Assembly (NCBI GenBank): GCA_003141315.1
Contig: PLLP01000016.1
Span: forward strand, 14,459-73,804
Direction of reading: 5' to 3'
DNA: 59,346 bases
Source: Phycisphaerales bacterium
GTDB taxonomy: Bacteria; Planctomycetota; Phycisphaerae; Sedimentisphaerales; Anaerobacaceae
The translations under genes and the position numbers were made by a program. Below are positions 13,032-58,314 of this stretch, one piece after another. The notes below the pieces were generated by a model. That model had not been told where the DNA came from. It made no database searches and saw nothing but the letters and a program-made list of their open reading frames with translations. How positions within the stretch are numbered: position 1 is the first letter of the stretch; each line of letters opens with the position of its first letter.

Positions 13032-14696
13032 TTATTTTACAACCGGCCAGAAAACCACATCGCCTTCCTTTTCGTTCCACATTTGTATTTGGCCATCTTT
13101 GTCTTTTGCTGAGACGCCGCCGTCATCGACAAAGTTTTTGCCGACACTATATAAAGTAAAACTCGATTCTGTCTTTTTATAAACCAGAGGTTTGTCACTC
13201 CACGGATCCATTGGCAACTCCTTCAGGAAACCATTTGAAACCAATTCATCAAGGCTGTCGGGATATTGTCCTTTTTCCTGTTTATACCGCAGCAGGGCAA
13301 GGATAGAAATAGTAGCTTGAGTATTAATTTTGCTTCGGAAACTTAATTCGAGAACCCTATTTATTGCAGGAGCCATTATTTCCAAAAACAGGTTGCCTTT
13401 GACAATCTTCATAAATTCTTTTTCACTGTCAATCTTTTCAGAATGGATTTGTGCCGGCGTTTTGTGAGCAATATTGTCATGATTATAAAGACGATCAACC
13501 ATTTGTCGGGTTTTAACCTTGCCCGGCTGAGTGAACAAAACATGGAAGGTCATTTTTGGAGATACAAATGGGGCAAAAACCTCCAACCAAAAATATTCCG
13601 GTTTTTTGTCAGAACCTAGGTATAACCGAATACGAGGTAGATACAAATGACTGCCGAAAGCGCTATCTGTAAAACATCTCTGGATTTCATCATACATATA
13701 TAATTTTTCCCCTGTGAAATTTATAACAAAATCTTCTTTTGCAATGGTCTCCTCGAGATTTTTTTGCAAGATTGTTAATGCAGCTGAATCGATTTTGTGC
13801 GTATCGAGAATTCTGCAAATAGTCTCAACGGATAATCCCTCAATTGCAATACCAACCAATTGCTCAACCAAAGTTTTGTTACCCTGTCTGATGTGCCGGC
13901 CAAAACGATAACAGGCCGTCAAATCGTTGAATGAATCTTCATAAGACCCCTGCTCAGCAAAAAATTGCGCCCGCCAGTTTAAAAGCAGGGCAAGATAACG
14001 AAATCCAGAATTGTTCGGCGTCGAAACTCCCCTCATACCAGAATTGGGGCCCTCATTTTTATATATCATCCAGCAATAGGGTTTTTGACTGCCTGCAATA
14101 ACAAGGTCGAAAACCTCTTTATTTTCGGTTATCCATTTATCAGTTTTCCCTTTTTCATCGGTTGATGCTTCATATTTCTTCCCGGCTTGTAAAAGAATCT
14201 TTACATCATTGAAATCGCTATTGGCTTCAAGCAACTGAATCGCTTTATCATAGAGAGGGGAGGCATTCTGTGTTTCATCGGCAACCGGCCGGACAAGGCG
14301 GTTAAATTCAGCTACATAATCGGTGGAGATAACAGGTTTGCCTGCCATAAACCATATCGCGTAACCAATCAAAAATATAATCAAAATACCTGCTGCCTGA
14401 AACGTCCTTACAATCACAGTTCGCCAAAGAGGCCTGCATCGTTTTTTAGCCCTGCGCAAAAGAATACCCAATAACTTCGGGTCGCCAAAATCTTCGATAA
14501 GCTGTTTTGCCTTCTGTTCTTTTTCCTCTTCGCTTTTACAATCCTTCAACTCATCTTCGAAATGCCCTGCCAGTTCAGCCATTACCTCACTGCGAACTTT
14601 TTTGCGATACCGCATCTTTTTTATAACCAGCCTGATATACTCCGCAGCCGCAGCCGGCAAATTTTCCAAAGCATCTCCTTTTCCTTCTTTCCGCAT
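13032..14696 (-). CDS. HAAS-domain membrane protein with a GspG-like C-terminus (copy 1)
   Basis: This 554-residue protein is the first of two tandem paralogues. The HAAS-like N-terminus is nearly identical to that of copy 2 over about 70 residues. A membrane helix lies at about 92-115, the middle has diverged strongly, and the C-terminus again ends with the ELPMDPWSDKPLVYKK and LYSVGKNFVDDGG motifs of pseudopilin G-like domains. The ATG follows GAGGTG by six bases. It is 61 bases downstream of padR on the same strand. By analogy with PadR-HAAS pairs, the HAAS domain may transmit a membrane signal or be under PadR control. The substrate is unknown. Confidence 0.8.
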   Translation of the reverse strand: MRKEGKGDALENLPAAAAEYIRLVIKKMRYRKKVRSEVMAELAGHFEDELKDCKSEEEKEQKAKQLIEDFGDPKLLGILLRRAKKRCRPLWRTVIVRTFQAAGILIIFLIGYAIWFMAGKPVISTDYVAEFNRLVRPVADETQNASPLYDKAIQLLEANSDFNDVKILLQAGKKYEASTDEKGKTDKWITENKEVFDLVIAGSQKPYCWMIYKNEGPNSGMRGVSTPNNSGFRYLALLLNWRAQFFAEQGSYEDSFNDLTACYRFGRHIRQGNKTLVEQLVGIAIEGLSVETICRILDTHKIDSAALTILQKNLEETIAKEDFVINFTGEKLYMYDEIQRCFTDSAFGSHLYLPRIRLYLGSDKKPEYFWLEVFAPFVSPKMTFHVLFTQPGKVKTRQMVDRLYNHDNIAHKTPAQIHSEKIDSEKEFMKIVKGNLFLEIMAPAINRVLELSFRSKINTQATISILALLRYKQEKGQYPDSLDELVSNGFLKELPMDPWSDKPLVYKKTESSFTLYSVGKNFVDDGGVSAKDKDGQIQMWNEKEGDVVFWPVVK

Positions 14697-22113: not shown

Positions 22114-22208
22114 GGCCGGGTCCCATGCAGGCAGGGCCTGCGAATTTGGTCAGGCGGGGAACCGAGCAGCCATAGCGGATGCCCAGCCGTGCCGTGGCAA
22201 ACCCGGCC
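22114..22208 (+). ncRNA. ffs: Signal recognition particle RNA, small bacterial type
   Basis: The 95-base segment folds as one long hairpin closed by GGCCGGGT at the 5' end and ACCCGGCC at the 3' end. The apical part carries the conserved SRP domain: GGTCAGG on one side, a GGGGAA tetraloop region, then GAGCAGCCA on the other. This is the binding site of Ffh, and the RNA is the 4.5S-type form without an Alu domain. A short T-rich tail follows. It lies 73 bases upstream of dnaX, an arrangement also known from Firmicutes. Confidence 0.93.
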
Positions 22209-22281
22209 TTCTTTGAATTGATGATTTATTATTGATTATTTTTAATTTGTAAGTTTGATTTTATAATGAATCGCATCGAAA

Positions 22282-39603: not shown

Positions 39604-39945
39604 TTAACCAATCGCCGTGCCGCCTCGTTCGCCGGTGCGAATGCGAACGCACTGCTCCATCGAAAGAACAAATATCTTGCCGTCGCCAGTTTTGCCCGTC
39701 TGTGCTCCTTTTGTAATGGCTTTGATTGTCTGCTCGACAAAATTGTCATTAACGGCGATTTCCAATCGAATCTTCCTTAATAGATTTCCCGTTTCCTTGA
39801 AGCCGCGATAGACTTCCGTGACGCCTTTTTGCCTGCCGTGGCCAAGCACCTCGCTTACGGTAATAAGATTGACCTCTTCCTTGTAGAGCTCTTCTTTTAC
39901 CTGGTCAAGCCTGTGCGGCTGAATTATAGCAATTACCAGCTTCAT
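39604..39945 (-). CDS. PII signal-transduction protein, copy 1 (lacks Tyr51)
   Basis: This 113-residue PII protein senses ATP/ADP and 2-oxoglutarate. The ATP-binding signature TGKTGDGKIFVL and RIRTGERG are intact. The T-loop reads YRGFKETGN, so the uridylylation Tyr51 is Glu51, and control by GlnD modification is unlikely. It is nearly identical to copy 2. The ATG at 39945 has AAGGAAAA upstream. An in-frame TTG two codons earlier is rejected. It follows amt1 by 20 bases, so it probably gates that channel. Confidence 0.95.
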   Translation of the reverse strand: MKLVIAIIQPHRLDQVKEELYKEEVNLITVSEVLGHGRQKGVTEVYRGFKETGNLLRKIRLEIAVNDNFVEQTIKAITKGAQTGKTGDGKIFVLSMEQCVRIRTGERGGTAIG

Positions 39946-39965
39946 AATCAATTTTCCTTACAATT

Positions 39966-41303
39966 TTATTCCAACATCGTATAAGCACGCTCGTTGTGCT
40001 GGGTGAGGTCAAGGCCCATAGCCTCTTCTTCATCAACAACCCGCACACCGACAAAAACATCCACCAGTTTGTATATAATGAACGTACCAACGAATGCGTA
40101 GACCAGTGTTGCAGCCGCTGCGGCAAGCTGGATGAAAAATTGCCTGGCATTTCCCGCAAGCAACCCATTGGCGCCCGCCGGGTTGATAAGCTTCGTTGCG
40201 AATAATCCTGTTGCGATTACTCCCCAAAAGCCGCTTATGCCGTGTATGCCAAAGGCATCCAGCGAATCATCGTAATGAAAGGCACGTTTCACGAAACTAA
40301 CGGCAACAAAACAAAAGATGCTTGCCACGATACCAATTATCAATGCCGCCCATATCCCGACATACCCTGCCGCCGGCGTAATAGCCGCAAGACCCGCAAT
40401 CGCACCGCTGATTGTCCCGAGCATTGTCGGCCTGCCGCTAAGTTTCCAGTCAAGAAAGGCCCACGTCAAGGCCGCTATCGCTCCCGCGGTATTGGTGACA
40501 ACAAAAGCGTTGGTTGCCACAGCATTCGCAGATAACGCGCTTCCCGCATTGAACCCGAACCAGCCGAACCACAGCAGCGCCGCACCAAGAACACTAAAGG
40601 GCAGGTTGTGAGGCGGCGTGGGATTATGGCAATAACCTTTTCTTTTGCCGACGATAATTGCCGTCACCAGCGCTGCGATACCCGCGTTAATATGAACAAC
40701 CGTTCCGCCTGCAAAATCAAGGACGCCCAAATTTTTTAACCACCCGCCGACACCCCAAACCATGTGCGCAACCGGGTCATACACAAATGTCGCCCACAGC
40801 AGCGTAAAAATCAAAAATGCTGAAAACTTCATTCTCTCGGCGAAGGCGCCGATAATCAGCGCCGGCGTAATCACGGCAAACATCGCCTGGAATATCATAA
40901 ACGCCTGATGCGGAATCGTGGCTGAGTAAGCAGGATATGGTTCAAAACCAACACCGTTTAATCCGAACCATTTCAGGCCGCCTATGAAACCATTCCCCGG
41001 CGAAAATGATAAGCTGTATCCGATTAAAACCCATTGAACACTCAAAACAGCCAATACAATAAAACACTGCATCAGGATGCTGAGCATATTTTTACGCCTT
41101 ACCAGCCCGCCGTAAAAGAACGCCAGGCCGGGCGTCATCAGCATTACAAACGCAGCGCTCATCAGCACCCACGCAGTATCGCTCGTGTCGATTGCCGGTT
41201 TTTGACTTGTCAAAGAACTCGCTTCACCTGAGGCTGTAGTTTCACACACTCCTATTGCTGCTGTCAGTAAAATGACCAGAGCAATAGCCAGAGCAGTTTT
41301 CAT
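39966..41303 (-). CDS. amt: Ammonium transporter Amt, copy 1
   Basis: This 445-residue channel has a signal-like N-terminus (1-21) and 11 membrane segments. The twin histidines of the pore are in GTVVHINAG (about 185) and DAFGIHGISG (about 335). DTAWVLMSAAFVMLMTPGLAFFYGG is the first-helix signature. The tail LTQHNERAYTMLE is the same as in copy 2. The ATG at 41303 follows GGGAG. It is the first gene of the long nitrogen operon, 72 bases from a sigma-54 promoter, and precedes its PII gene (order amt-PII rather than glnK-amtB). Confidence 0.96.
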   Translation of the reverse strand: MKTALAIALVILLTAAIGVCETTASGEASSLTSQKPAIDTSDTAWVLMSAAFVMLMTPGLAFFYGGLVRRKNMLSILMQCFIVLAVLSVQWVLIGYSLSFSPGNGFIGGLKWFGLNGVGFEPYPAYSATIPHQAFMIFQAMFAVITPALIIGAFAERMKFSAFLIFTLLWATFVYDPVAHMVWGVGGWLKNLGVLDFAGGTVVHINAGIAALVTAIIVGKRKGYCHNPTPPHNLPFSVLGAALLWFGWFGFNAGSALSANAVATNAFVVTNTAGAIAALTWAFLDWKLSGRPTMLGTISGAIAGLAAITPAAGYVGIWAALIIGIVASIFCFVAVSFVKRAFHYDDSLDAFGIHGISGFWGVIATGLFATKLINPAGANGLLAGNARQFFIQLAAAAATLVYAFVGTFIIYKLVDVFVGVRVVDEEEAMGLDLTQHNERAYTMLE

Positions 41304-41386
41304 ATCCTGCACTCCCTGACTGCAAAGAGTCTAATTAAAAAAGATTCTTTTATGTTCACGTAAAACGGCTGTATCCAAAGTATTAC

Positions 41387-41401
41387 GCAAACACTGTGCC
41401 A
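41387..41401 (-). promoter_or_regulatory. Sigma-54 promoter of amt1-PII-glnN...carA
   Basis: On the minus strand TGGCAC-AGTGT-TTGC is a full -24/-12 sigma-54 element with GG and GC exactly ten bases apart. Transcription would start near 41375, 72 bases before amt1. Confidence 0.8.
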
Positions 41402-41426
41402 CAGGCCTTTTTGATATTCATTTTTT

Positions 41427-41457
41427 GCGCAACAACCTTCACAAGCTGAAGTTGCGC
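41427..41457. promoter_or_regulatory. Dyad between enhancer sites and the sigma-54 promoter
   Basis: GCGCAAC and GTTGCGC, extended by TTCA and TGAA after a four-base bulge, form an 11-pair stem with a short loop. It lies between the operators and the -24 element, where the DNA must bend. It could bind a bender or a second regulator. Confidence 0.35.
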
Positions 41458-41493
41458 TAACTAAACGCCTTGAGGCAGTCAGGGAATAAAGCT

Positions 41494-41504
41494 ACATTTT
41501 TGTG
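41494..41504. promoter_or_regulatory. ACA-N4-TGT operator (amt1 proximal)
   Basis: ACATTTTTGTG has the ACA and TGT half-sites with a four-base centre. Its centre is 112 bases upstream of the -12 GC of the amt1 sigma-54 promoter. Confidence 0.5.
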
Positions 41505-41523
41505 CATACTCCAGAACAAATTT

Positions 41524-41534
41524 ACATTTTTGTC
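41524..41534. promoter_or_regulatory. ACA-N4-TGTC operator (amt1 distal)
   Basis: ACATTTTTGTC lies 30 bases beyond the proximal copy. It shares the ACA-N4-TGTC frame with the three copies at 44328-44565. Confidence 0.5.
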
Positions 41535-41554
41535 ATTTTTTTAGTATTAAAACT

Positions 41555-41581
41555 GGGCTCTGCCAGCCGTGGTCAGAGCCC
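41555..41581 (-). terminator. Intrinsic terminator after PII copy 2
   Basis: GGGCTCTG and CAGAGCCC form eight perfect pairs with an 11-base loop. On the minus strand AGTTTTAAT follows. It separates the OMP-amt2-PII unit from the amt1 promoter 150 bases further on. T residues on both sides make bidirectional use possible. Confidence 0.65.
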
Positions 41582-41633
41582 TTTTAACAGGATTGTCCAT
41601 GTGGAGTCCTGTCATTTTTTGCAGGGCCAACTG

Positions 41634-41975
41634 TTATCCGATAGCTGTACCGCCTTTTTCGCCGGTGCGAATGCGAACGCACTGCTCCATCGAAAGAACA
41701 AATATCTTGCCGTCGCCAGTTTTGCCCGTCTGTGCTCCTTTTGTAATAGCCTTGATTGTCGGCTCGACAAAATTGTCATTAACGGCAATTTCCAATCGAA
41801 TCTTCCTTAATAGATTTCCCGTTTCCTTGAAGCCGCGATAGACTTCCGTGACGCCTTTTTGCCTGCCGTGGCCAAGCACCTCGCTTACGGTAATAAGATT
41901 GACCTCTTCCTTGTAGAGCTCTTCTTTTACCTGGTCAAGCCTGTGCGGCTGAATTATAGCAATTACCAATTTCAT
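41634..41975 (-). CDS. PII signal-transduction protein, copy 2 (lacks Tyr51)
   Basis: This 113-residue PII differs from copy 1 at only a few residues (for example Pro for Gln in FVEPTIKAI and Lys for Arg near the end). It has the same Glu51 T-loop and an intact TGKTGDGKIF. The DNA is identical to copy 1 over long blocks, in contrast to the more diverged amt genes. That suggests recent gene conversion. AAGGAAAAT precedes the ATG. It follows amt2 by 39 bases and is followed by a terminator. Confidence 0.95.
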   Translation of the reverse strand: MKLVIAIIQPHRLDQVKEELYKEEVNLITVSEVLGHGRQKGVTEVYRGFKETGNLLRKIRLEIAVNDNFVEPTIKAITKGAQTGKTGDGKIFVLSMEQCVRIRTGEKGGTAIG

Positions 41976-41993
41976 AATTTATTTTCCTTCAAC

Positions 41994-42008
41994 TCCGCCC
42001 AGGGCGGA
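41994..42008. repeat. TCCGCC-CAG-GGCGGA hairpin element
   Basis: A perfect six-pair inverted repeat with a three-base loop lies in the amt2-PII spacer. It is absent from the matching amt1-PII spacer, so it arrived after the duplication or was lost from the other copy. Confidence 0.5.
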
Positions 42009-42014
42009 CAAGAT

Positions 42015-43376
42015 TTATTCCAACATCGTATAAGCACGCTCGTTGTGCTGGGTGAGGTCAAGGCCCATAGCCTCTTCTTCATCAACAACCCGCACACCGA
42101 CGAAAACGTCCACAACCTTATAAATAATCAGCGTAGCAATGAAAGTGTACACCGCTGTAAAAGCAACCGCGGCAAGCTGTATTAAAAACTGTTTCGGGTT
42201 TCCGAAAAACAGGCCGTCCGCACCCGCCGGGTTGATAAGCTTCGTTGCAAATAATCCTGTTGCGAGCGCGCCCCACATTCCGCCGACACCGTGAACGCCA
42301 AAGGCGTCGAGCGAGTCATCGTAACCGAATTTGTGTTTGATAAACCCGACAGCGATAAAACAAAATACGCTTACCATCAGGCCAATCGCAATTGCCCCGC
42401 CGATACCGACGTATCCCGCGGCAGGCGTAATGGCAACGAGCCCTGCGACCGCACCGCTGATTGTTCCGAGGATGGTGGGATTGCCGTTGAATATCCAGTC
42501 TAACAATGCCCAGGACAGCGCCGCAGCAGCAGTAGCAGTGTTGGTGACGACAAAGGCATTGACCGCCAGGCCGTTTGCGGCAAGAGCGCTTCCCGCATTG
42601 AACCCGAACCAGCCAAACCACAGCAGCGCCGCGCCGATAACGCTGAAAGGCAGGTTGTGAGGCGGCGTGGGATTCTTGCAATAGCCTTTCCTTTTGCCGA
42701 TAACGATTGCCGTCACCAGCGCTGCGATACCGGCGTTAATATGGACGACCGTTCCACCGGCAAAATCCAGTGTGCCGAGGTCCCTGAGCCAGCCGCCAAC
42801 GCCCCAAACCATGTGCGCAAGCGGGTCATAAACAAACGTCGCCCACAAAACGGTAAATATCAAAAACGCGGAAAATTTCATTCTCTCGGCAAACGCGCCG
42901 ATGATAAGCGCCGGCGTAATCACGGCAAACATCGCCTGGAAAATCATAAACGCCTGATGCGGAATCGTTGCGGCATAAGCGGGGTACGGGTCCAGGCCGA
43001 CGCCTTTTAATGCAAACCATTTCAGGCCGCCGATGAAACCATTCCCCGGCGAAAATGATAAACTGTATCCGATTAAGACCCACTGCAGGCTTATTACCGC
43101 CAAGGCAATGAAGCACTGCATTAAAATGCTGAGCATATTTTTACGCCTTACCAGCCCGCCGTAAAAGAATGCCAGCCCCGGCGTCATCAGCATCACAAGC
43201 GCAGCGCTCATCAGCACCCACGCCGTATCGCCCGAGTCAACCTTTGGAGGCGGAGCCTGAACTGCCGCTTTTGCAGCATCTGATTGCACCAGGGTTGTGC
43301 TGTCCCCTGCAGAAACAACACCGGTTAATAACCATAAGCCCAACAATGTTCCAACCAATAATTTTTTCTTGCTCAT
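42015..43376 (-). CDS. amt: Ammonium transporter Amt, copy 2
   Basis: This 453-residue paralogue of the downstream Amt has a signal peptide (1-23), a short Ala/Gln-rich linker and then the same DTAWVLMSAALVMLMTPGLAFFYGG helix. The pore histidines are in GTVVHINAG and DAFGVHGVGG. The C-terminus is identical to copy 1. The membrane core is similar, and the N-terminus and several loops differ, so the two channels may differ in affinity or in binding of PII. AAGGTGG precedes the ATG. It lies between the outer-membrane protein gene and PII copy 2. Confidence 0.96.
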   Translation of the reverse strand: MSKKKLLVGTLLGLWLLTGVVSAGDSTTLVQSDAAKAAVQAPPPKVDSGDTAWVLMSAALVMLMTPGLAFFYGGLVRRKNMLSILMQCFIALAVISLQWVLIGYSLSFSPGNGFIGGLKWFALKGVGLDPYPAYAATIPHQAFMIFQAMFAVITPALIIGAFAERMKFSAFLIFTVLWATFVYDPLAHMVWGVGGWLRDLGTLDFAGGTVVHINAGIAALVTAIVIGKRKGYCKNPTPPHNLPFSVIGAALLWFGWFGFNAGSALAANGLAVNAFVVTNTATAAAALSWALLDWIFNGNPTILGTISGAVAGLVAITPAAGYVGIGGAIAIGLMVSVFCFIAVGFIKHKFGYDDSLDAFGVHGVGGMWGALATGLFATKLINPAGADGLFFGNPKQFLIQLAAVAFTAVYTFIATLIIYKVVDVFVGVRVVDEEEAMGLDLTQHNERAYTMLE

Positions 43377-48767: not shown

Positions 48768-48976
48768 GTCTGTCGCCCACAACGAACAAGTAACGTGGAT
48801 TTAATTTAGCCACAGATTTCACTGATTAACACTGATTTTTTTGCAACTAAATATCGAAGATCCGCCATCTTTGTGGCGGACTAACGACTAAAAACTGACG
48901 ACTAATTTAGGCACAAGGAATTTGGAAATGCGATAAAGCTAAGGGGTGGTGCCTTCAGGCCATAAAACAAGACATA
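48768..48976. repeat. Repeat-rich spacer before asd
   Basis: This spacer holds a GCCACAGATTTCACTGATTA-type repeat (about 48810-48833), a TCCGCC...GGCGGA hairpin at 48861-48880 and CTAACGACTAAAAACTGACGAC-like units around it. No coding sequence is seen. Confidence 0.5.
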
Positions 48977-49004
48977 TTGCAATTTTTGGAAAAAGAGGTA
49001 TAAT
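48977..49004 (+). promoter_or_regulatory. Sigma-70 promoter of asd
   Basis: TTGCAA and a consensus TATAAT are 16 bases apart. Transcription would start near 49011, leaving an 83-base leader. Confidence 0.65.
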
Positions 49005-49037
49005 TCAGGCTGATAATCGGTTTTGTTCTTTATAGAT

Positions 49038-49060
49038 ACAGCCAGCGGTGTGCTGGCTGT
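49038..49060 (+). promoter_or_regulatory. Strong hairpin in the asd leader
   Basis: ACAGCCAGC and GCTGGCTGT form nine perfect pairs with a five-base loop. It ends 33 bases before the asd ATG. No T-run follows. The leader is too short for a lysine riboswitch, so it may act on RNA stability or bind a protein. Confidence 0.45.
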
Positions 49061-49093
49061 TGTTGTGAATAAGAAAGTTTTTGGAGTAAAAAG

Positions 49094-50095
49094 ATGGGTT
49101 GCAATTTGGCAATAGCAGGCGTGACGGGTGCGGTCGGCCAGGAATTCCTGAGGATTATCGAGGAGCGGGATTTCCCGTTCGACTCGTGCAAAATGCTCGC
49201 AAGCAGCAGAAGCGCAGGGAAAAAATTAACGTTCAAGGGCAAAGAATATACCGTAGAAGAAATGACGGCAAACAGCTTTAAGGGCGTGGGTATCGCCCTA
49301 TTCAGCGCAGGGGCGGCCCGCAGCAGAGAGTTCGCACCGGCAGCGGTGAAGGCAGGCGCGGTGGTTATAGATAATTCATCGGCATTCAGAATGGTGCCGG
49401 ACGTGCCTCTTGTCATCCCGGAAATAAATCCTGAAAAGATAAAGGAACATAAAGGGATTATCGCCAACCCGAACTGCTCGACGATTATAGCGATAGTGCC
49501 GGTGTGGCCTTTGCATAAGGCAAACCCCGTCAAGCGAATGGTGGTAAGCACATACCAGGCGGCAAGCGGAGCAGGGATGTCGGCGATGCTGGAGCTGGAA
49601 GAGCAGACCCGTGAGATACTGGCAGGCAAAAAGCCTACCTGCAAAGTGCTTGCTTATCAGCTTGCATTTAATTTGTTCTGCCACAATTCGAAAATCGGGC
49701 CGAACGGCTACAACGAAGAAGAGATAAAAATGGTCAACGAGACAAGGAAGATTTTCGATTGCCCGGATATTGCGATAACCTGCACCTGCGTTCGCGTGCC
49801 GGTATTGCGGGCGCACAGCGAGAGCATAAATCTCGAATTCAAGGATTCTATCCGACCGCAAGATGTGACGGAGCTGCTGCGGACTGCGCCCGGGGTCTCG
49901 ATAATCGACGACAGGGAAAATAACCGTTTCCCGATGCCGATAGACGCGACGGGCAAAGACGATATTTTTGTCGGCAGGATTCGGCAGGATGAATCGATAC
50001 CGGATAACCGCGGAATAAATCTGTGGGTTGTCGGCGACCAGATTCGCAAAGGCGCGGCCTTAAATGCTGTCCAAATCGCAGAAAAGTTGCTATAA
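49094..50095 (+). CDS. asd: Aspartate-semialdehyde dehydrogenase
   Basis: This 333-residue enzyme reduces aspartyl phosphate to the semialdehyde for lysine, diaminopimelate, threonine and methionine. The Rossmann start LAIAGVTGAVGQEFLRII, FSAGAARSREFAP, the active-site NPNCSTI (Cys near 132) and the catalytic His in CTCVRVPVLRAHSE are all present. Length is usual. GGAG lies before the ATG. It heads a plus-strand run with truA and the glycosyltransferase. Diaminopimelate supply links it to the mur genes further on. Confidence 0.96.
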   Translation: MGCNLAIAGVTGAVGQEFLRIIEERDFPFDSCKMLASSRSAGKKLTFKGKEYTVEEMTANSFKGVGIALFSAGAARSREFAPAAVKAGAVVIDNSSAFRMVPDVPLVIPEINPEKIKEHKGIIANPNCSTIIAIVPVWPLHKANPVKRMVVSTYQAASGAGMSAMLELEEQTREILAGKKPTCKVLAYQLAFNLFCHNSKIGPNGYNEEEIKMVNETRKIFDCPDIAITCTCVRVPVLRAHSESINLEFKDSIRPQDVTELLRTAPGVSIIDDRENNRFPMPIDATGKDDIFVGRIRQDESIPDNRGINLWVVGDQIRKGAALNAVQIAEKLL

Positions 50096-50104
50096 TCTGC
50101 CACG

Positions 50105-50845
50105 ATGGCGGCTCGCAAAATAAAATTAACGATTCAATATGACGGGAGCGGGTATTTCGGCTGGCAGGTTCAGCCGGACAGAATGACAATACAGCAATTG
50201 CTCAATGAGGCGGTCTCTACACTCATCGGCAGGAAGGTGACTGTCCACGGTGCAAGCAGAACTGATGCGGGGGTAAGTGCACTGGGGCAGGTGGGGCTGA
50301 TAGAAATTGATTCGCCGATACCGACGGAAAATTTTCCGCGTGCGATAAGCGACAGGCTGCCGCCGGAAGTGGCGGTTATCGAGGCGGTCGAGGTCGATAA
50401 AAAATTTGACCTTATCAACGACGTCAAAAGCAAACTCTATCGCTACACGGTTTTCAACGGCAAGCATAGGCCTGTGCTGGATGTAAGGCACTGCTGGCAC
50501 ATACCGGAAAAATTAGACACCGAAAAAATGAACGAGGCGGCGAAACTGCTGGAGGGGACTAAAGATTTTAAGTCTTTCGCATCGGCTAAGGATAACAGGG
50601 AAAGCAGCGTAAGAACTATTTTTCGCTGTGAAGTTTTCAGTAGGGAAGACTGGGTATATATTGATACCGAAGGCGGTGGTTTCTTATATAATATGGCGAG
50701 GAATATCGCGGGGACGCTCGTTGATATCGGCCTTGGCAGATGGCAGCCGGAAAAGATACAGGAGATTCTCGATGCGAAAGACCGCACCGCAGCAGGAATG
50801 ATTGCACCGGCGGAAGGACTATGTTTGAACTGGATAAAATACTGA
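50105..50845 (+). CDS. truA: tRNA pseudouridine(38-40) synthase
   Basis: This 246-residue enzyme isomerises uridines in the anticodon arm. YDGSGYFGWQVQP opens the protein, and the catalytic Asp is in GASRTDAGVSALGQV (about 57). LYRYTVFNGKHRP and the C-terminal GGGFLYNMARNIAGTLVDIG motif are typical. It starts nine bases after asd with no clear ribosome-binding site, so reinitiation is likely. Confidence 0.95.
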   Translation: MAARKIKLTIQYDGSGYFGWQVQPDRMTIQQLLNEAVSTLIGRKVTVHGASRTDAGVSALGQVGLIEIDSPIPTENFPRAISDRLPPEVAVIEAVEVDKKFDLINDVKSKLYRYTVFNGKHRPVLDVRHCWHIPEKLDTEKMNEAAKLLEGTKDFKSFASAKDNRESSVRTIFRCEVFSREDWVYIDTEGGGFLYNMARNIAGTLVDIGLGRWQPEKIQEILDAKDRTAAGMIAPAEGLCLNWIKY

Positions 50846-50846
50846 A

Positions 50847-52028
50847 TTGAAAATTGTTCACATTATAACTCGATTGATTTTGGGTGGGGCGCAGGAAAAC
50901 ACGCTGATAACGTGCAGGCTGCTTATCCAGCGGGGGCACGAGGTATGGCTTATAACGGGGCCGGCGAGCGGGCCTGAAGGAGAGCTGTTCGAGCAGACAA
51001 AACAGGCAGGATACAAAACTATCGTCGTCGATGAAATGATTCGGGCGATAAACCCGCTGAAAGATTTTATCGCTTACAGGAAAATCAGAAAAATCCTTAA
51101 CGAGATTCAGCCGGACATAGTTCATACACATTCGGCAAAGGCAGGGATACTCGGCAGATACGCAGCGTATAATCTAACTACAAATTCGAAATCCGAAATC
51201 CGAAATCCGAAAATTGTACATTCGATACATGGTTTGTCGTTTCACCCGTATCAAAACAATTGGCTCAATAGATTTTATATTGCGATAGAAAAGGCGGCGG
51301 CGAAGAAGACAGATTACTTCATCAGCGTAGCCGATGCAATGACAGAACAGGCGAAGGCTGCGGGCATCGGACTTGATAAACCTTATATTACGGCCTACTC
51401 GGCTGTTGACGAGGAGGCATTTTTATCACCTATACCAGAGGAAAAAAGGCTGGAATTCCGTGCGAAATATGGAATCGGTAAAGATGCGGTCGTGCTGGTG
51501 ACGGTGGCGAGATTATTTATGCTGAAGGGACACGATTACATCATCGAATCGGCAAAGACGCTTTCCAAACGATACAGAAATGTGATGTGGCTTTTTGTCG
51601 GCGACGGGAATCTGGCGGATAAATACAAGCAGCAGGCAAGCGATTTAGGACTGGCAGAGAGGATAAAATTCACGGGGCTTTTGCCTCCCAGCCAGATACC
51701 GCTTGCGATACAGTCTTCGGATATACTGGTGCACTGCTCGCTGCGGGAAGGACTCGCCCGGACGCTTCCGCAGGCGATGCTTTGCGGCAGGCCGGCGGTG
51801 AGTTTCGACGTCGATGGGGCAAAAGAGGTAGTGAGCGAAAAGACCGGCAGACTTGTCGAGCCGAAAAATATAGAGCAACTGACGAGAGTTTGCGCCGAAT
51901 TAATTGAAGATGAAAATCTGCGAAAAAGGCTTGGCGAAAACGGGCGGGAATCTGTAAAGAGAAAATTCGCACCCGAAACAATGGTTGATACAATAGAAGA
52001 TGTGTATCAGAAAATAGTAAAAGAATAA
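50847..52028 (+). CDS. Glycosyltransferase family 4-like protein
   Basis: This 393-residue GT-B enzyme uses a nucleotide sugar for envelope or capsule glycans. The N-terminal acceptor domain begins with IVHIITRLILGGAQENTL. The C-terminal donor domain has VARLFMLKGHDYIIESAK, FVGDG and HCSLREGLARTLPQAMLCGRPAV with the EGxxxxxxEA-like sugar motif. A TTG start lies one base after the truA stop. Residues about 112-123 (NSKSEIRNPK) come from an AATCCGAA-type repeat and have no counterpart in the family. Confidence 0.88.
   Translation: MKIVHIITRLILGGAQENTLITCRLLIQRGHEVWLITGPASGPEGELFEQTKQAGYKTIVVDEMIRAINPLKDFIAYRKIRKILNEIQPDIVHTHSAKAGILGRYAAYNLTTNSKSEIRNPKIVHSIHGLSFHPYQNNWLNRFYIAIEKAAAKKTDYFISVADAMTEQAKAAGIGLDKPYITAYSAVDEEAFLSPIPEEKRLEFRAKYGIGKDAVVLVTVARLFMLKGHDYIIESAKTLSKRYRNVMWLFVGDGNLADKYKQQASDLGLAERIKFTGLLPPSQIPLAIQSSDILVHCSLREGLARTLPQAMLCGRPAVSFDVDGAKEVVSEKTGRLVEPKNIEQLTRVCAELIEDENLRKRLGENGRESVKRKFAPETMVDTIEDVYQKIVKE
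51181..51214 (+). repeat. AATCCGAAATCC repeat inside the glycosyltransferase
   Basis: Four tandem units of CGAAATC/CGAAATCC lie in frame and encode SKSEIRNPK. The same family occurs at 1-26 and 57099-57155. Confidence 0.7.
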
Positions 52029-52064
52029 TTACCAAAAGAACCGGACATACCAAGGAGTGAACAA

Positions 52065-52445
52065 ATGAATCTCGACAGTTACTTTGAAAATGTTAAGGGT
52101 GTTGGGATATTGGCAACCAGCGATAAAAAGGGTAATGCGGATGCAGCGATTTATGCGAGGCCTTATGTAATCGACGAAAAAATAATTATGTTCAGTATGA
52201 TGGAACGCACAAGCTACGGCAACGTGATGGCAAATCCGAACGCCTGCTTTTTGTTTATGGAAAAAGGCGAGGGGTTCAAGGGATACAGATTTTATTTAAG
52301 GCAAAGGGGAGAGGAAACGAACGAAGACAACATAAAAATGCTCAGAAAAACGCACAACATTATGGACATAGTGTCCATTGAAAAAAGGCACCTGGTGTAT
52401 TTCGAGATTAAACAGGTAAGGCCTTTAATCGGCGATAAGGAATAG
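52065..52445 (+). CDS. Pyridoxamine 5'-phosphate oxidase-like flavin protein
   Basis: This 126-residue split-barrel protein looks like the small PNPOx-like group: GVGILATSDKKGNADAAIYARPYVID forms the first strands, and NPNACFLFMEKG and GYRFYLRQRG the later ones. Members bind FMN or F420, and the substrate is rarely known. It lacks the full PNPOx C-terminal region, so vitamin B6 synthesis is unlikely. AAGGAG precedes the ATG, 36 bases after the glycosyltransferase. Confidence 0.75.
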   Translation: MNLDSYFENVKGVGILATSDKKGNADAAIYARPYVIDEKIIMFSMMERTSYGNVMANPNACFLFMEKGEGFKGYRFYLRQRGEETNEDNIKMLRKTHNIMDIVSIEKRHLVYFEIKQVRPLIGDKE

Positions 52446-52754
52446 AAAGCAAAAAAGTTGCGGCTGCCGCAGTTCGTGACTCGTCGCTTGTGACTCGTCG
52501 CTCCGCCTCGGTCCGCCGGAGGCGGATAAGCCGTTGCTCGTCGCTCGTATTTGGCTTGTTTTAGTGCGTCATTTTACGACCGCCAAATCCCGATACCGGC
52601 GACGGCGAACAAGCCGAACAGGCAGCGGAAATTTTTCCCTTGTTTTAGGGTGCAATCGTGATAGATTACTGCTGCGCCTGCGGCGTTATAGCCGATATAG
52701 AGAAAATGGATTTTAAAAGAATTTTCCAGCAACAGAAAAGGAACAAAAAAGGCA
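52446..52754. repeat. Repeat-filled spacer before murC
   Basis: Two direct copies of TGACTCGTCGCT (about 52477-52502) and a TTGCTCGTCGCTCG unit surround a TCCGCC-GGA-GGCGGA hairpin at 52512-52526. The rest is unremarkable except for the small ORF listed next. A 60-codon Arg-rich frame at 52534 is regarded as chance. Confidence 0.5.
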
Positions 52755-52774
52755 ATGAAGAGTCTGACTTGTGA
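52658..52774 (+). CDS. Possible 38-residue ORF overlapping the murC start
   Basis: A GTG preceded by AGGG opens a 38-codon frame with a Cys-Cys-Ala-Cys cluster and a basic second half. It ends 20 bases inside murC. It could couple translation to murC. It is not recognised and may be chance. Confidence 0.2.
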   Translation: MIDYCCACGVIADIEKMDFKRIFQQQKRNKKGNEESDL

Positions 52775-54203
52775 GTCGAGAGGCAGGCTGTCAATAACGG
52801 GCCAAAAGCAGACAGCAGCAGTGGAGAGATTTCATTTTATCGGGGCGGGCGGAATCGGGATGAGCGGGCTGGCAAAACTATTACTCAAACGCAATTGCAT
52901 CGTGAGCGCATCAGACCAGGAAAAAAGTCCGGTGACGGACGGATTGGCAGAGCTCGGGGTGGAGATGAGGATAGGCCACGGCGAAGCAAACCTCGCGGAC
53001 CGCAGGCAAACCGTCGTGATATCGGCAGCGGTAAAAGAGGATAACCCGGAACTGAAACTTGCCCGCAAAAGGGGCTTGAGGATTTTTAAATATGCCCAGA
53101 TGCTCGGGACTCTAATGAACGATTATGACGGGGCGGCGGTGGCAGGCACGCACGGCAAAAGCACGACCAGCGGGTGGTTAGTTTATACGCTGAAGCAGCT
53201 CGGAGTCGATGCGAATTTTATCATCGGCGCCAATATAAGCCAGCTCGGCACAAACAGCGGAGCAGGCAACAGCAGGATTTTTGTGGCGGAGGCGTGCGAA
53301 TACGACCGCAGCTTCCTGAACCTGCGGCCTAAAATCGGCTGCATAATGAATATCGAGGCAGACCACCTGGATTATTACAAGGACGAGGCGGAGATAGTCG
53401 AGGCCTTCGACGATTTCGCAGGGAATATTAAAGATGATGGAATTCTGATAGCCAACGGCAGCGACCCGAACGTGAAAAAGATACTGCAAAACGGACGGGC
53501 AAAAAATTTTCAGACAATCGGTTTCGAGAGAAGCTGTGATTTTTACGCGGAGAATCTGCGGCTGCAAAATGGGTTATACAGCTTCGATGCTTATAACAAC
53601 GGGAGCTTTCTCGGAAATGCACGAATAAGCGTGCCGGGCAGGCATAATGTTTTTAATGCGATGGCGGTTATAGCGATGGCGGTAAATCTCGGTTGCGACG
53701 GCCCGCAGACAGTGGCGGAACTGGGCAAATTTACCGGTATGGACAGACGCATTATGGAGCGGGCGAGGGTTAACGGCGTCGTCATTCTCGATGATTACGC
53801 ACACCACCCGACGGAGATAAGGGCAAGCTTAGAGGCGATAAAGCAGCTGTATCAGCCGCGACGGCTTTGGTGCGTTTTTCAGCCTCACCAATACAGCAGG
53901 ACGAGATTTTTGCTTGATGATTTTGCGGAAAGCTTTAAGCTGGCAGATATGACGATTGTGCCGGAGATATACTTCGTGCGTGATTCCGTCGAGAGTAAAA
54001 AGGAAGTCAACGCCGCTGTTCTGGCTGAGAGAATAAGGACGAAGGGAAGCAATGCCTTGTTTATTGACGGCTTCGAGAAGATATGCGATTATCTTGTCGA
54101 GAATGTTTCTGATGGAGACTTAGTAGTGACGATGGGAGCGGGAGATGTCTGGAAGGTAGCAGATGAATATATTCAAAGGTCTGGAAAAGATAGTAAAAAG
54201 TAA
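52755..54203 (+). CDS. murC: UDP-N-acetylmuramate--L-alanine ligase
   Basis: This 482-residue Mur ligase adds the first amino acid of the stem peptide. FHFIGAGGIGMSGLAKLLL is the UDP-binding start near residue 26, GTHGKSTTSGW the ATP loop near 133 and DDYAHHPTEI the MurC signature. The first 23 residues (up to AAVE) precede the family start and may be an extension. An in-frame GTG at about 52821 is the alternative, but it lacks a ribosome-binding site. It overlaps murB by 41 bases. Confidence 0.95.
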   Translation: MKSLTCESRGRLSITGQKQTAAVERFHFIGAGGIGMSGLAKLLLKRNCIVSASDQEKSPVTDGLAELGVEMRIGHGEANLADRRQTVVISAAVKEDNPELKLARKRGLRIFKYAQMLGTLMNDYDGAAVAGTHGKSTTSGWLVYTLKQLGVDANFIIGANISQLGTNSGAGNSRIFVAEACEYDRSFLNLRPKIGCIMNIEADHLDYYKDEAEIVEAFDDFAGNIKDDGILIANGSDPNVKKILQNGRAKNFQTIGFERSCDFYAENLRLQNGLYSFDAYNNGSFLGNARISVPGRHNVFNAMAVIAMAVNLGCDGPQTVAELGKFTGMDRRIMERARVNGVVILDDYAHHPTEIRASLEAIKQLYQPRRLWCVFQPHQYSRTRFLLDDFAESFKLADMTIVPEIYFVRDSVESKKEVNAAVLAERIRTKGSNALFIDGFEKICDYLVENVSDGDLVVTMGAGDVWKVADEYIQRSGKDSKK

Positions 54204-55044
54204 TTATCCGATAGGCAGGGATACCTGGTACGGGCTTGGAGGGTCTGCGGATTATTTTATTGAGCCGCAGAGCGTAGACGAGCTGCAGGATGTCGTCCGG
54301 CAGTGCAGGGATAACAATATCCCGATTAAAATAATCGGGTTAGGCTCGAATCTGCTGATAAGCGACAAAGGTGTGCGGGCGGCGGTGATAAGGCTGGATT
54401 CAGAGGCGTTTTCGCAGATGGAATTTGACGGCGAGATTGTCATCGCGGGAGCGGGTGCGGAACTGAGCAGGCTGGTTCTGGAGTGCGTTCAAAAGGGGCT
54501 GAGCGGCCTGGAGGCTCTTACAGGGATACCGGGGTCGGTAGGCGGGGCAGTGAAAATGAACGCGGGCGGCAACTTCGGCGACATCGGCTCGGTAGTGCAG
54601 AGCGTGACGGTGATGGACAGCCGCGGACAGATAATAGAGAAAGTCAAGCCGGAACTTGTTTTCGATTACCGCAAGACGAATATCACTGCCAAATTCATAC
54701 TTGGCTGCCAGATGAAGCTAACAAAATCCGACAGCGAGCAGATTATGCAGCGTGTAAAAGAGATATGGATTTACAAGAAGAACAATCAGCCGCTCAACAC
54801 GAGAAACGCCGGCTGCATATTCAAAAATCCGGCGGGTGCGGCTGCGGGTGCATTGATAGACAAGGCCGGCCTCAAAGGAACACGGATAGGCAAGGCCGTT
54901 ATAAGCGAAAAGCACGCAAACTTTATCATAGCCGAGCAGGGCTGCAGGAGCAAAGACGTAATGGAGCTAATAGAGCTTGCGAGAAAAACGGTTAAGGATA
55001 AATTCGGAACGGCACTGGAACTTGAAATCGAGATATGGCAATAA
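54163..55044 (+). CDS. murB: UDP-N-acetylenolpyruvoylglucosamine reductase
   Basis: This 293-residue flavoenzyme makes UDP-MurNAc. FAD is bound by GLGSNLLIS and GIPGSVGGAVKMNAGG. DYRKTNI and the C-terminal Glu in TALELEIEIW are in place, and the length fits the short type II form. The start lies inside murC, and the 41-base overlap points to coupled translation. Confidence 0.95.
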   Translation: MNIFKGLEKIVKSNYPIGRDTWYGLGGSADYFIEPQSVDELQDVVRQCRDNNIPIKIIGLGSNLLISDKGVRAAVIRLDSEAFSQMEFDGEIVIAGAGAELSRLVLECVQKGLSGLEALTGIPGSVGGAVKMNAGGNFGDIGSVVQSVTVMDSRGQIIEKVKPELVFDYRKTNITAKFILGCQMKLTKSDSEQIMQRVKEIWIYKKNNQPLNTRNAGCIFKNPAGAAAGALIDKAGLKGTRIGKAVISEKHANFIIAEQGCRSKDVMELIELARKTVKDKFGTALELEIEIWQ

Positions 55045-55096
55045 ATCCTGATGAATCGGGACACTGAAGTTGGAGGAAAAACATAAATAAATTAAG

Positions 55097-56125
55097 ATGG
55101 AAATAGAAACAACAAAGAGCGATAATGGTTCGACAGGCTCACCACAAGCAAGTCAAAAAAAGGGGATCATAAAAGCCGCGGTTTTGTGCGGCGGGATAGG
55201 CGAGGAACGGCAGATAAGCCTGGAGAGCGGCAGATGTGTCCGGGATGCCCTGATACAGGGTGGGGTGGAGACGATTCTTACGGACGTCGGGCCTGAAAAA
55301 CTCGGAATTCTCGATGACAAAACAATCGATGTGTTTTTTATAGCGATGCACGGTCGATTCGGCGAAGACGGACAGCTTCAGGAAATAATGGAATCAAAAG
55401 GGCTCGACTTTACCGGCAGCCCGTCAGCAGCCTGCCGGCTCGCATACGACAAGATGCTGAGCAAAAAGGCATTTGCAAAGGCCGGCGTGAAAACACCGCC
55501 GTCGGTTGAATTTTCCATCGCGCCCGCCGGCAACGGAACGGACAAAAAAGAAGACGCGGAGGACATTAAGGAGCTTGAGGTGCGGCTTGCGGCACTGGCG
55601 AGTAAATTTGTCGTAAAGCCTTTTCGCCAGGGGAGCAGTTTCGGGGTAAGCATAGTCGATAACGCCAAAGAGGCAGCCATTATAGCGATCAAGACGGCCA
55701 GGCTTTTCGGCGACTGTATGGTTGAAAAATATATACAGGGCAGGGAGCTAACAGTAGGTATAGTCTGCGGGCAGGTTCTGCCGATAATTGAGATTAGGCC
55801 GAAAGAGGCGTTTTATAACTTTCAGGCAAAATACGTGGATGAAAAGACGCAGTTTTTGTTCGATACAATCGAAGACAAAAGGCTGGAGCAAAAAGTAAAA
55901 GATTCTGCGGCCAAATGCTTCGAGACAATCGGCGTAAGAGACATAGCAAGAGCGGATTTCATCCTTGGCAGCGACGGCGAGCTTTACGCGCTGGAGGTAA
56001 ATGCGATACCCGGACTGACGGGGCATTCGCTTGTGCCAATGGCGGCGGCAAAGGCAGGTATGACGATGAGCCGGCTGTGCACAATGATGGTAGAGGAAGC
56101 GATGAAACGAGGAAAGGCAAAGTAG
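55097..56125 (+). CDS. ddl: D-alanine--D-alanine ligase
   Basis: This 342-residue ATP-grasp enzyme makes D-Ala-D-Ala. The first half has VLCGGIGEERQISLESG and AMHGRFGEDGQLQ. The second half has FVVKPFRQGSSFGVSIV and the metal site in LEVNAIPGLTGHS. About 20 residues (TTKSDNGSTGSPQASQKKG) precede the usual start and include a segment encoded by a GTTCGACAGGCTCACC repeat. GGAGG is 19 bases before the ATG, which is far, so the exact start is uncertain. It lies 52 bases after murB. Confidence 0.94.
   Translation: MEIETTKSDNGSTGSPQASQKKGIIKAAVLCGGIGEERQISLESGRCVRDALIQGGVETILTDVGPEKLGILDDKTIDVFFIAMHGRFGEDGQLQEIMESKGLDFTGSPSAACRLAYDKMLSKKAFAKAGVKTPPSVEFSIAPAGNGTDKKEDAEDIKELEVRLAALASKFVVKPFRQGSSFGVSIVDNAKEAAIIAIKTARLFGDCMVEKYIQGRELTVGIVCGQVLPIIEIRPKEAFYNFQAKYVDEKTQFLFDTIEDKRLEQKVKDSAAKCFETIGVRDIARADFILGSDGELYALEVNAIPGLTGHSLVPMAAAKAGMTMSRLCTMMVEEAMKRGKAK
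55127..55152 (+). repeat. GTTCGACAGGCTCACC repeat inside ddl
   Basis: This unit encodes N-G-S-T-G-S-P-Q-A-S at the Ddl N-terminus. A relative on the other strand, CCCTGAAC...GTCGAAGGG, lies at 58122-58142. Confidence 0.5.
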
Positions 56126-56158
56126 GGCCGGATTCATCGAAGACGGGCTTGCTGTAAA

Positions 56159-57082
56159 ATGGTTTTTAAAAACAACACCAAAATAAAGAATAAGCAGAAG
56201 ACGGATTTCGCATCGTCTCAGTGGGTGCGGGTTCTAATGGTGGCAGGCCTGACAATTCTGCCGTGCTGTCTCTTTTTCGGATTCGTATATCTTGACAAGT
56301 ATGTAAAAAAAGCGGTGCCGGTTGCGAAGCGGACGGGCCTTATAGAACTTGTTGAGCCGCCGTGGTGGCTCAACGACGCATTGAAGGAGCGGATTTACGC
56401 AGCGGCGACGGCAAACGGGGAAGAGCTGAAACTCGACGAAGATGCGGCAAAATCAGTCCGGTGCAATCTCGAAAAGGCGGGCGGCTGGCTCGATAATGTA
56501 AAAGTGCAGACGACGTGGCATACGTTTCGGATAAGGGCAAAATGGCGAAGGCCGCTCGCGGTAATAAAAGGGCAGAAACAGACAATCATGGCAGATGCGG
56601 ATGTGCATCCGATGGATTACGTGGAGGTGCCGAATCTGCCGGTAGTAAATGTAGTCGGTTTTGCGGAAGAGGCAGGCGTGTTGCAGCCGGGCAGCGAATC
56701 TGCCGTGAACAAGAAAGATGATATTGCGGCGGCGGTAGCGATATTAGACAGGTTAGACAGGCGTGATTCGCTCGAAGGCCAGGGCCGGGGACTGCTCTAC
56801 GAGATTGCCAAAATTGACGTGAGTAATTTTAACGGCAGAAAGAGCACGAAAAATCCGCACATCGTTCTTTATACGACAGACGGCACGGAAATTATATGGG
56901 GAGCGGAACTCGGCAAATGGTACCGGCATCTTGAGGTGACAGATGAGCAGAAGATTGCCAGGCTATACAGCTATTTTTATGAAAAGGGGACGCTCCTTGG
57001 CGGAGCAAAAGTTATAAACCTGCGCGACCCGAAAGAGACAGTGCCTCTGCCAATAGATAAATACGTCGCAAGCAAAAACTAA
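56159..57082 (+). CDS. ftsQ: FtsQ/DivIB-like division protein
   Basis: This 307-residue protein has a basic cytoplasmic start, one membrane helix (about 25-44) and a periplasmic part. That part begins with a POTRA-like region and continues with beta strands (IDVSNFNGRKSTKNPHIVLYTTDGTEIIWG, then KWYRHLE). This is the FtsQ pattern, though the sequence is diverged. Order murC-murB-ddl-ftsQ is that of the division and cell-wall cluster. ftsA and ftsZ do not follow here. Confidence 0.8.
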   Translation: MVFKNNTKIKNKQKTDFASSQWVRVLMVAGLTILPCCLFFGFVYLDKYVKKAVPVAKRTGLIELVEPPWWLNDALKERIYAAATANGEELKLDEDAAKSVRCNLEKAGGWLDNVKVQTTWHTFRIRAKWRRPLAVIKGQKQTIMADADVHPMDYVEVPNLPVVNVVGFAEEAGVLQPGSESAVNKKDDIAAAVAILDRLDRRDSLEGQGRGLLYEIAKIDVSNFNGRKSTKNPHIVLYTTDGTEIIWGAELGKWYRHLEVTDEQKIARLYSYFYEKGTLLGGAKVINLRDPKETVPLPIDKYVASKN

Positions 57083-57098
57083 CAACAAGCAAAAAAGC

Positions 57099-57155
57099 AA
57101 ATCCGAAATTCGAATACCGAAATACGAAACAAGCACGAAATCCAAATGTTCAAAT
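57099..57155 (+). repeat. AATCCGAAATTCGAA repeat between ftsQ and the YkgJ-type genes
   Basis: Imperfect units (AAATCCGAAATTCGAATACCGAAATACGAAAC) fill most of this convergent spacer. They match the family seen in the glycosyltransferase and at the window start. Confidence 0.7.
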
Positions 57156-57178
57156 GACTAAACAATTTTTGAATTCGT

Positions 57179-57607
57179 TCATAACTTTGGCAATGTGACG
57201 TTGAGGGCGGTTCGAAGGTCGCTATAAATGTATGGTATATCGAATTCCGTGCAAAGAGATTTGAAACGGCTGATGGCAGATTCGCTTAACTTACTTTGAA
57301 AATCGGCGTCGCCTTCGCAGAAAAAGATTCGGCAGCCGGCAAAACGCAGCGGATAAATGGTGCATTTGCCTTTTTCGTTATAAGGACAAATATTTGCCGG
57401 CATTTTCCTGATTTTTTCGGGTTCGAGATTTTCCCGCAGAAAAACAAGCTCCGGCGTAGTTATAAAAAGCAGGTGGCCGAACCGCTCGAAGTCGCAGCAT
57501 TTGCCGCAGGCCTCGCATTGGGCTTTAAGACTACTTTGCTGAATCTGAGAATCGAGCCAGTTGTAAATCTCCGCGACTTTTTCGCAGGCCGGCGAATTAC
57601 TTTTCAT
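57179..57607 (-). CDS. YkgJ-family cysteine-cluster protein, copy 2
   Basis: This 142-residue protein has the zinc- or iron-binding pattern CEACGKCCDFERFG, then CPYNEKGKCTIYPLRFAGCRIFFC. The family is widespread and its role unclear (metal chelation or maturation are suggested). I chose ATG 57607 over an in-frame upstream start at 57712, because that would overlap the preceding gene by more than 100 bases. It overlaps by 11 bases with the chosen start. Confidence 0.8.
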   Translation of the reverse strand: MKSNSPACEKVAEIYNWLDSQIQQSSLKAQCEACGKCCDFERFGHLLFITTPELVFLRENLEPEKIRKMPANICPYNEKGKCTIYPLRFAGCRIFFCEGDADFQSKLSESAISRFKSLCTEFDIPYIYSDLRTALNVTLPKL

Positions 57608-58052
57608 TTTCCCACCATTTTTTCTGCCGGCGGAGTTTTTCGATTTCCTCGTGGCTGAAAAATTTTCCACGATTGATGCCGGGGCATTTTTTGGCAGTTC
57701 GATTCCATGCATCAGGATTTGAAAGGTTGTTCGGCCAGAACGGCCAGGTGCGGCACTGGTTCGGACGAACGGGATAAATTACGCATTTTTTTTTGCCTTT
57801 AATCAGCTTCAGAAAGATGCAGTCCTTCGTTGCGGGGTTTTCGATTATGGTTGTGCGCAAAAAGATTCGTTTGAGAAATTGGCGTCGCAATTGATGGATG
57901 GGCAGTTTGAGATGATAGGCGATAAGCTCGATTTCTTCCTTTGTCACCCAGATAAACCCTTCATCCGGCCCGGCGCAGCAGTTGCCGCAGGCCTGACACT
58001 CGAAATGCAGGCCGGCAGAATACCATTTATTTTCTTTAGCCACAGCGTTCAC
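57597..58052 (-). CDS. YkgJ-family cysteine-cluster protein, copy 1
   Basis: This 151-residue protein has CQACGNCCAGPDEGFIWVT near 19-37, then CIFLKLIKGKKKCVIYPVRPNQCRTWPFWP near 95-125 and a last Cys in AKKCPGIN. All the conserved cysteines of the family are present. The C-terminus is basic and Trp-rich. It is co-transcribed with, and distantly related to, copy 2. Confidence 0.85.
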   Translation of the reverse strand: MNAVAKENKWYSAGLHFECQACGNCCAGPDEGFIWVTKEEIELIAYHLKLPIHQLRRQFLKRIFLRTTIIENPATKDCIFLKLIKGKKKCVIYPVRPNQCRTWPFWPNNLSNPDAWNRTAKKCPGINRGKFFSHEEIEKLRRQKKWWENEK

Positions 58053-58314
58053 AGATTATTTCAGCCACCAAGACACAAAAGCACAAAGAAATACAAAAAT
58101 TAAATAGCCGCAAAAAGCCTGCCCTGAACGTAGTCGAAGGGGCACAAAATTTTTAGCCACAGAGGGCATCCGCCTTCGCTAAAGTTACGTCGGACAGGCA
58201 GAGTTCACAGAGAAAAACAAATTATTTTGCAGCCACAGATTTCATCCGCCTCCCGTAAGGGATGGCTTACGCCATGCGGCGGACCTTCGGCACACAGAGA
58301 AAATTTTTCACAAA
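58053..58314. repeat. Nested short repeats between ilvD and the YkgJ-type genes
   Basis: CCACAG...CACAGA units recur (about 58038, 58153, 58204, 58231 and 58290). Within them lie a CCCTGAACGTAGTCGAAGGG element (58122-58142), a TCCGCCTTCGCTAAAG...GTCGGA element (about 58169-58195) and a long TCCGCC...GGCGGA hairpin (58245-58283). No coding sequence is seen. Confidence 0.6.

Follow-up and report, generated by a model that had tools for sequence, protein, structure and literature searches.

Very small hairpin repeats, probably mobile, inserted into other repeats and into protein genes of a Phycisphaerales genome

Short palindromic hairpins with TCCGCC..GGCGGA stems lie scattered in a 59,346-nt stretch of DNA (the window) from a Phycisphaerales bacterium (GenBank assembly GCA_003141315.1, contig PLLP01000016.1, forward-strand positions 14,459 to 73,804). 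A first-pass annotation of the window had reported such hairpins at 41994, 48861, 52512, and 58245, several of them nested in other short repeats. All four were confirmed in the sequence, with some limits corrected, and at the last three loci the host repeats are seen to continue beyond the hairpin. Exact matches to TCCGCC-N1-10-GGCGGA occur at 41994-42008, 48861-48880, and 52512-52526 (3 versus 0.04 expected from shuffled sequence). These hairpins very probably represent a family of very small nonautonomous mobile elements, with the core TCCGCC-loop-GGCGGA and several longer forms. The features in question are listed below; positions preceded by an L number lie at other loci.

39960..39964, + strand: ACAAT in CCTTACAATTTTATTCC, the matching empty site in the other glnB-amtB spacer (duplicated spacer comparison)
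41994..42008, + strand: 15-bp hairpin in the filled glnB-amtB spacer (spacer net +19 bp)
48810..48842, + strand: adjoining dispersed repeat CCACAGATTTCACTGATTAACACTGATTTTTTT; the composite is found again at L039 1443-1540, where the hairpin loop differs
48846..48853, + strand: left part of the host repeat, ACTAAATA; uninterrupted ACTAAATACTAACGACTAA at L080 4824, L044 4722, and L024 5286
48854..48880, + strand: 27-bp element TCGAAGA-TCCGCC-ATCTTTGT-GGCGGA (= TCGAAGATCCGCCATCTTTGTGGCGGA); the genome has 24 such copies
48881..48908, + strand: host heptamer repeat continuing, CTAACGA CTAAAAA CTGACGA CTAATTT
52474..52501, + strand: heptamer-type host repeat TCGTGAC TCGTCGC TTGTGAC TCGTCGC; TGCTCGTCGCTCGT continues from about 52535
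52502..52526, + strand: 25-nt hairpin TCCGCCTCGGTCCGCCGGAGGCGGA (corrected limits of the hairpin at 52512-52526)
55123..55145, - strand: empty copy GTGGTGAGCCTGTCGAACCATTA (23 of 23 bases), split by the 27-bp element at L054 8945
58169..58194, + strand: decayed 26-bp copy TCCGCCTTCGCTAAAGTTACGTCGGA (from its fold and comparison with a relative)
58232..58244, + strand: host repeat GCCACAGATTTCA; CACAGAG continues from about 58294; uninterrupted CCACAGATTTCACAGA at L084 4470 and L096 1669
58245..58283, + strand: 39-nt element in which a TCCGCC/GGCGGA outer stem encloses two hairpins (from sequence and fold)
58284..58291, + strand: CCTTCGGC tail, which several copies hosted by the CCACAG..CACAGAG repeat have in common

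A longer repeated unit, 48854-48880, has the hairpin at 48861-48880 as its core; the DNA fold of this unit has an energy of -8.0 kcal/mol (z -3.07). The 39-nt element folds into three stems (-11.2 kcal/mol, z -2.35) and has one near-identical copy elsewhere, at L037 11451. A related hairpin suggested near 58169 does belong to the family, with 3 of its 26 bases unlike the intact 26-bp form of the relative G014, but it has decayed, its fold being no better than those of shuffled sequences (z 0.67).

Counts of TCCGCC-N0-20-GGCGGA and of a reversed control pattern over the whole 2.35-Mb genome (G000) were 237 and 10, respectively. When all hairpins with a 6-bp stem and a 3-nt loop were counted, TCCGCC was the most over-represented stem (61 versus 0.4 expected), followed by TTCGCC (16 versus 0.35) and CCCGCC (14 versus 0.3), both with pairing preserved; a TTCGCC..GGCGAA version of the 27-bp form occurs at L084 4538. 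Stems are perfect and loops highly variable across copies. Because the three stems keep pairing while the loops vary, the hairpin itself is probably the recognized feature. Location and flank statistics come from a 1.2-Mb sample (about half of the genome; 40 kb being N) with 116 copies, of which 70 lie outside open reading frames versus 12.5 expected. The element has an orientation: flanks A..C (G..T on the other strand) were found in 63 of 114 copies, the permutation maximum being 56.

Several forms can be distinguished when all copies are read with their flanks: (i) the core form of 15 bp with 3-nt loops; (ii) a 24-bp form with the CCTTCGGC tail, hosted in CCACAG..CACAGAG and CCACCAAGGACACAAAG repeats; (iii) the 27-bp form, TCGRAGATCCGCC-N8-GGCGGA, with the nonpalindromic 5' part TCGRAGA; and (iv) further forms of 25 and 39 nt, plus one of 26 to 28 nt that is frequent in G014. 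The nonpairing parts (TCGRAGA, the CCTTCGGC tail, and the interior of the 39-nt form) are common to unrelated sites, which points to common descent and not to repeated independent origin. They argue in the same way against the view that the hairpins are immobile, arising anew at each site under selection as terminators, mRNA stabilizers, or protein-binding sites. That view would accommodate the intergenic enrichment and the constant stem with its variable loop, yet it is very improbable, given also the copies inside conserved protein genes described below. None of the terminator-like sites of the window (GC hairpin plus T run) overlaps a hairpin copy, and an Rfam search gave no match on the window copies; identity as an intrinsic terminator or Rfam RNA thus has no support for them. 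Elsewhere in the window, positions 22114-22211 encode the bacterial small signal recognition particle RNA (Rfam RF00169, 70 bits).

That copies have been inserted follows from pairs of empty and filled sites. The host repeat ACTAAATA followed by CTAACGACTAA is split at 48854-48880 as well as at other loci; at the three loci listed above it is unbroken. After exact excision of the 27-bp form, the flanks match existing genome sequence at at least 34 bits in 11 of 17 loci, compared with 1 to 4 of the 17 when the excision is shifted by 3 to 12 bases as a control. The comparison of empty with filled host repeats, which the first-pass annotation had proposed as a check, yields real empty sites; the lack of such sites, which it had named as a refutation, did not arise. 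Its claim that the hairpin at 41994-42008 occupies just one of two duplicated spacers also holds, the two being glnB-amtB spacers, one filled and one empty. The spacers belong to a tandem duplication of glnB and amtB (39604-43376) in which the glnB copies are 96% identical over 300 nt and the amtB copies near 80%, which suggests that the glnB part was recently converted.

Three conserved proteins have extra residues that fall exactly at a palindrome: (i) an HI0933-like flavoprotein, with 3 additional residues (net +9 bp) absent in 15 relatives, where about six target bases appear replaced and not interrupted; (ii) an AroD-AroE fusion (L025 9043-10659), with 10 residues at a TCCGCC palindrome, absent in 24 relatives; and (iii) a DPP-IV-like peptidase, with 11 residues that 13 homologues, a paralogue included, do not have, and with TGG on both sides. 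The sequences that existed before and received copies thus include protein genes and the spacer of a duplicated operon as well as heptamer-type tandem repeats and other dispersed repeats. The proposal that a small mobile palindrome had been inserted is well supported by the empty and filled pairs, by these in-gene inserts without counterpart in relatives, and by a patchy, lineage-specific copy number.

Dispersed repeats (14-mers) adjoin 29 of the 70 intergenic copies, about four times the 7.7 obtained on average for random intergenic positions, and hosts of the 27-bp form include CTAANNN and CTGTATT heptamer repeats. Nesting might nevertheless be coincidental if intergenic DNA were so rich in repeats that any hairpin looked nested and composites were duplicated as units. 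In keeping with this, random intergenic sites also often adjoin repeated 12-mers, copies inside outer inverted repeats show no significant excess (8 versus 4.2), and two nested units recur as such. These are the composite 48810-48908, repeated at L039 with little altered except the hairpin loop, and the 25-nt hairpin with the adjoining TAAGCC (52502-52532), whose 31 bases are identical at L081 2722 in a different context; because each was duplicated whole, each represents one event. Coincidental nesting is distinctly unlikely, however, being largely contradicted by the clear 14-mer excess and by the precise 27-bp excisions, which recreate uninterrupted host repeats. The loops of the two composites (ATCTTTGT versus GTTCGTGT) differ far more than their surroundings. 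Other dispersed repeat families (CCACAGATTTCACAGATT, CCACCAAGACACAAAG, CCCTGAACGTAGTCGAAGGG, and GTGAGCCTGTCGAAC) occur at 58020-58165 of the window and in many intergenic regions, and heptamer repeats (CTAANNN, CTGTATT, and CCGAAAT) are likewise dispersed in intergenic regions.

Several observations weigh against insertion as an account of all copies. A generic empty-site test on all 68 intergenic copies gave a weak result (5 versus about 1 at at least 30 bits), so that most 15-bp copies are without a recognizable empty partner. The empty sites are other loci, the duplicated spacer, and orthologues, with no strain-level site from the same genus among them; a same-genus comparison of G032 and G036 showed too much divergence, with no synteny in the stretch examined. 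Tandem heptamer hosts blur the junctions, so that exact ends and target duplications are unreadable there, and insertion into such hosts can look exact artefactually. Some nested composites were copied whole, and not every nested site is therefore a separate insertion. Finally, the target duplications that the first-pass annotation had suggested looking for did not materialize: flank analysis revealed none of fixed length, and direct repeats at the element ends were inconsistent, with a mild excess of imprecise 4-nt repeats.

Across relatives, the palindrome is present in 1 to 276 copies. The 27-bp form was found in 6 of 89 family genomes (none in the other 83); G009 has 6 copies and the present genome 24. 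Other genomes of the planctomycete phylum contain bursts of 179, 123, 79, 76, and 75 palindromes; certain lineages have thus gained copies while related ones have not. In G157 and G194, which belong to one lineage of this phylum, the loops among the copies listed are almost only TCA/TGA (or TAA/TTA), and near-uniform TCA/TGA loops among the copies listed in one genome are as expected if a single copy had been amplified. Several Phycisphaerales and Sedimentisphaerales are among the named genomes that share the 24-bp form, in line with a planctomycete placement of the window. A cross-phylum pattern scan returned 21 stretches from many phyla, a sporadic distribution that may include chance or convergent matches, and a scan of viral contigs for the 27-bp pattern gave 17 matches, a number that does not clearly exceed what chance would roughly give.

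With respect to the machinery, we think it unlikely that the hairpins are REP-type elements moved by a resident REP-associated tyrosine transposase (RAYT) or other Y1 (HUH) transposase through single-strand cut and paste. The genome does have three Y1 matches, including a class-3-like gene with a TCCGCC palindrome at its 3' end, and insertion without fixed duplication is an outcome of HUH enzymes. The class-3-like protein (177 aa; L018 [G000:C10:176040-176249] and L043 15851-16490) resembles a REPtron and has the motifs NHVH, YIWT, and YVKNGQ, the class-3 TnpA Y1 signature being taken from PMC6006769. Its gene lies between inverted CAGAGCCGCGAAC..GAGCGGTA repeats, and the palindrome is nested in the gene's own CAGAGCC..GAGCGGTA repeats, forming its last codons. 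Repeats associated with class-3 TnpA Y1 show gene linkage and a foot, CnGA, 5' of the hairpin (PMC6006769); in the 27-bp form, AAGA, GAGA, or CAGA precedes the stem. A search for a RAYT-type transposase, also recommended by the first-pass annotation, nonetheless spoke against a connection. A palindrome adjoins only 1 of the 16 located RAYT/Y1 genes with an HUH motif (the one where it is nested in the gene's own repeats), as judged from the flanking sequence retrieved, the numbers of palindromes and Y1 genes are uncorrelated over 41 genomes (rho 0.003), and no Y1 match was obtained in G036, a genome with 52 palindromes; linkage to and correlation with RAYT were accordingly rejected. Moreover, no GTAG/CGTC tag was found beside the palindrome, where the 5' tetranucleotides varied (the commonest being AAGA, CTTA, GCCA, and GAGA), and inverted doublets are not the main unit, the copies being mostly singlets (another copy lies within 200 bp for 22 of 116).

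Spread without a transposase, by template switching or strand invasion at palindromes and repeats, with quasi-palindrome correction keeping the stems perfect, is possible though doubtful. It would fit the combination of perfect stems with highly variable loops, the insertions that sometimes lie within other palindromes, the lack of a linked enzyme, and the replacement of about 6 target nt by 15 nt, instead of plain interruption, at several sites (L044 4795, L026 9599, and the flavoprotein gene). It fits less well with the 27-bp form, which has precise ends, including the nonpalindromic TCGRAGA, at unrelated sites, or with insertions in unique coding DNA without obvious homology. For the small mobile elements favored here, the most likely route would be through a single-stranded hairpin intermediate, which trans-acting machinery may paste into DNA exposed as a single strand. 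Such machinery might be an HUH Y1 transposase, resident or lost, or template switching at replication forks. A bolder reading, that hairpins of 15 to 40 nt burst through many uncultured lineages by host replication and repair with no dedicated transposase, and so are the smallest self-spreading DNA elements, seems to us rather unlikely. In their behavior the hairpins (15 to 40 nt, about 240 in the genome) resemble mobile elements, which would be the smallest yet described.

Among known systems, REP and REPIN elements with RAYT transposases (PMC3116915, PMC3733652, and PMC6006769) resemble the present hairpins in being short, intergenic, palindromic, nonautonomous, patchy, and present in hundreds of copies; the present hairpins differ in lacking the GTAG/CGTC tag and any RAYT linkage or correlation, and in being mostly singlets. 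In Volvox organelle DNA, short palindromes inserted within other palindromes form composites (PMC2670323), as the present hairpins do by nesting, but the Volvox palindromes are organellar and have AT-rich loops, TAAA/TTTA (PMC2670323). Miniature inverted-repeat transposable elements are also nonautonomous, hairpin-capable, and dispersed; the present hairpins are far smaller and have no fixed target duplication, and no parent transposon's terminal inverted repeats were found as separate parts of them.

The hundreds of copies, natural empty and filled pairs, and in-gene inserts make the copying of a 15- to 27-bp hairpin directly testable. The hairpins also give rise to short in-frame insertions in proteins and to composite repeats between genes, which annotation usually ignores. 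The small dispersed repeats (SDR) of Nostoc and its relatives, reportedly described by Elhai and colleagues in 2008, are said to be dispersed hairpin-forming sequences of 21 to 27 nt, inferred to be mobile, embedded in heptamer tandem repeats, and nested in each other; an RNA intermediate was reportedly proposed for them. Judged by this description, the present family is similar in being a dispersed many-copy repeat (237 core palindromes, 24 of the 27-bp form), in being embedded in heptamer and other repeats, and in preserving its hairpin by compensatory stem change. It differs in sequence and phylum (planctomycete-type versus cyanobacterial) and in being seen within protein genes against orthologues. 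PMC2884548 and PMC4390886 cite the SDR work, and PMC4390886 confirms that SDR5 is inserted precisely within the HIP1 octamer. Since the features of REP and REPIN elements are missing and the anatomy agrees with that reported for SDR, we place the hairpins among very small mobile hairpin repeats, as distinct from the SDR families themselves. Elements of such size sit at the lower limit of mobile DNA, and their best-known named parallel is in cyanobacteria.

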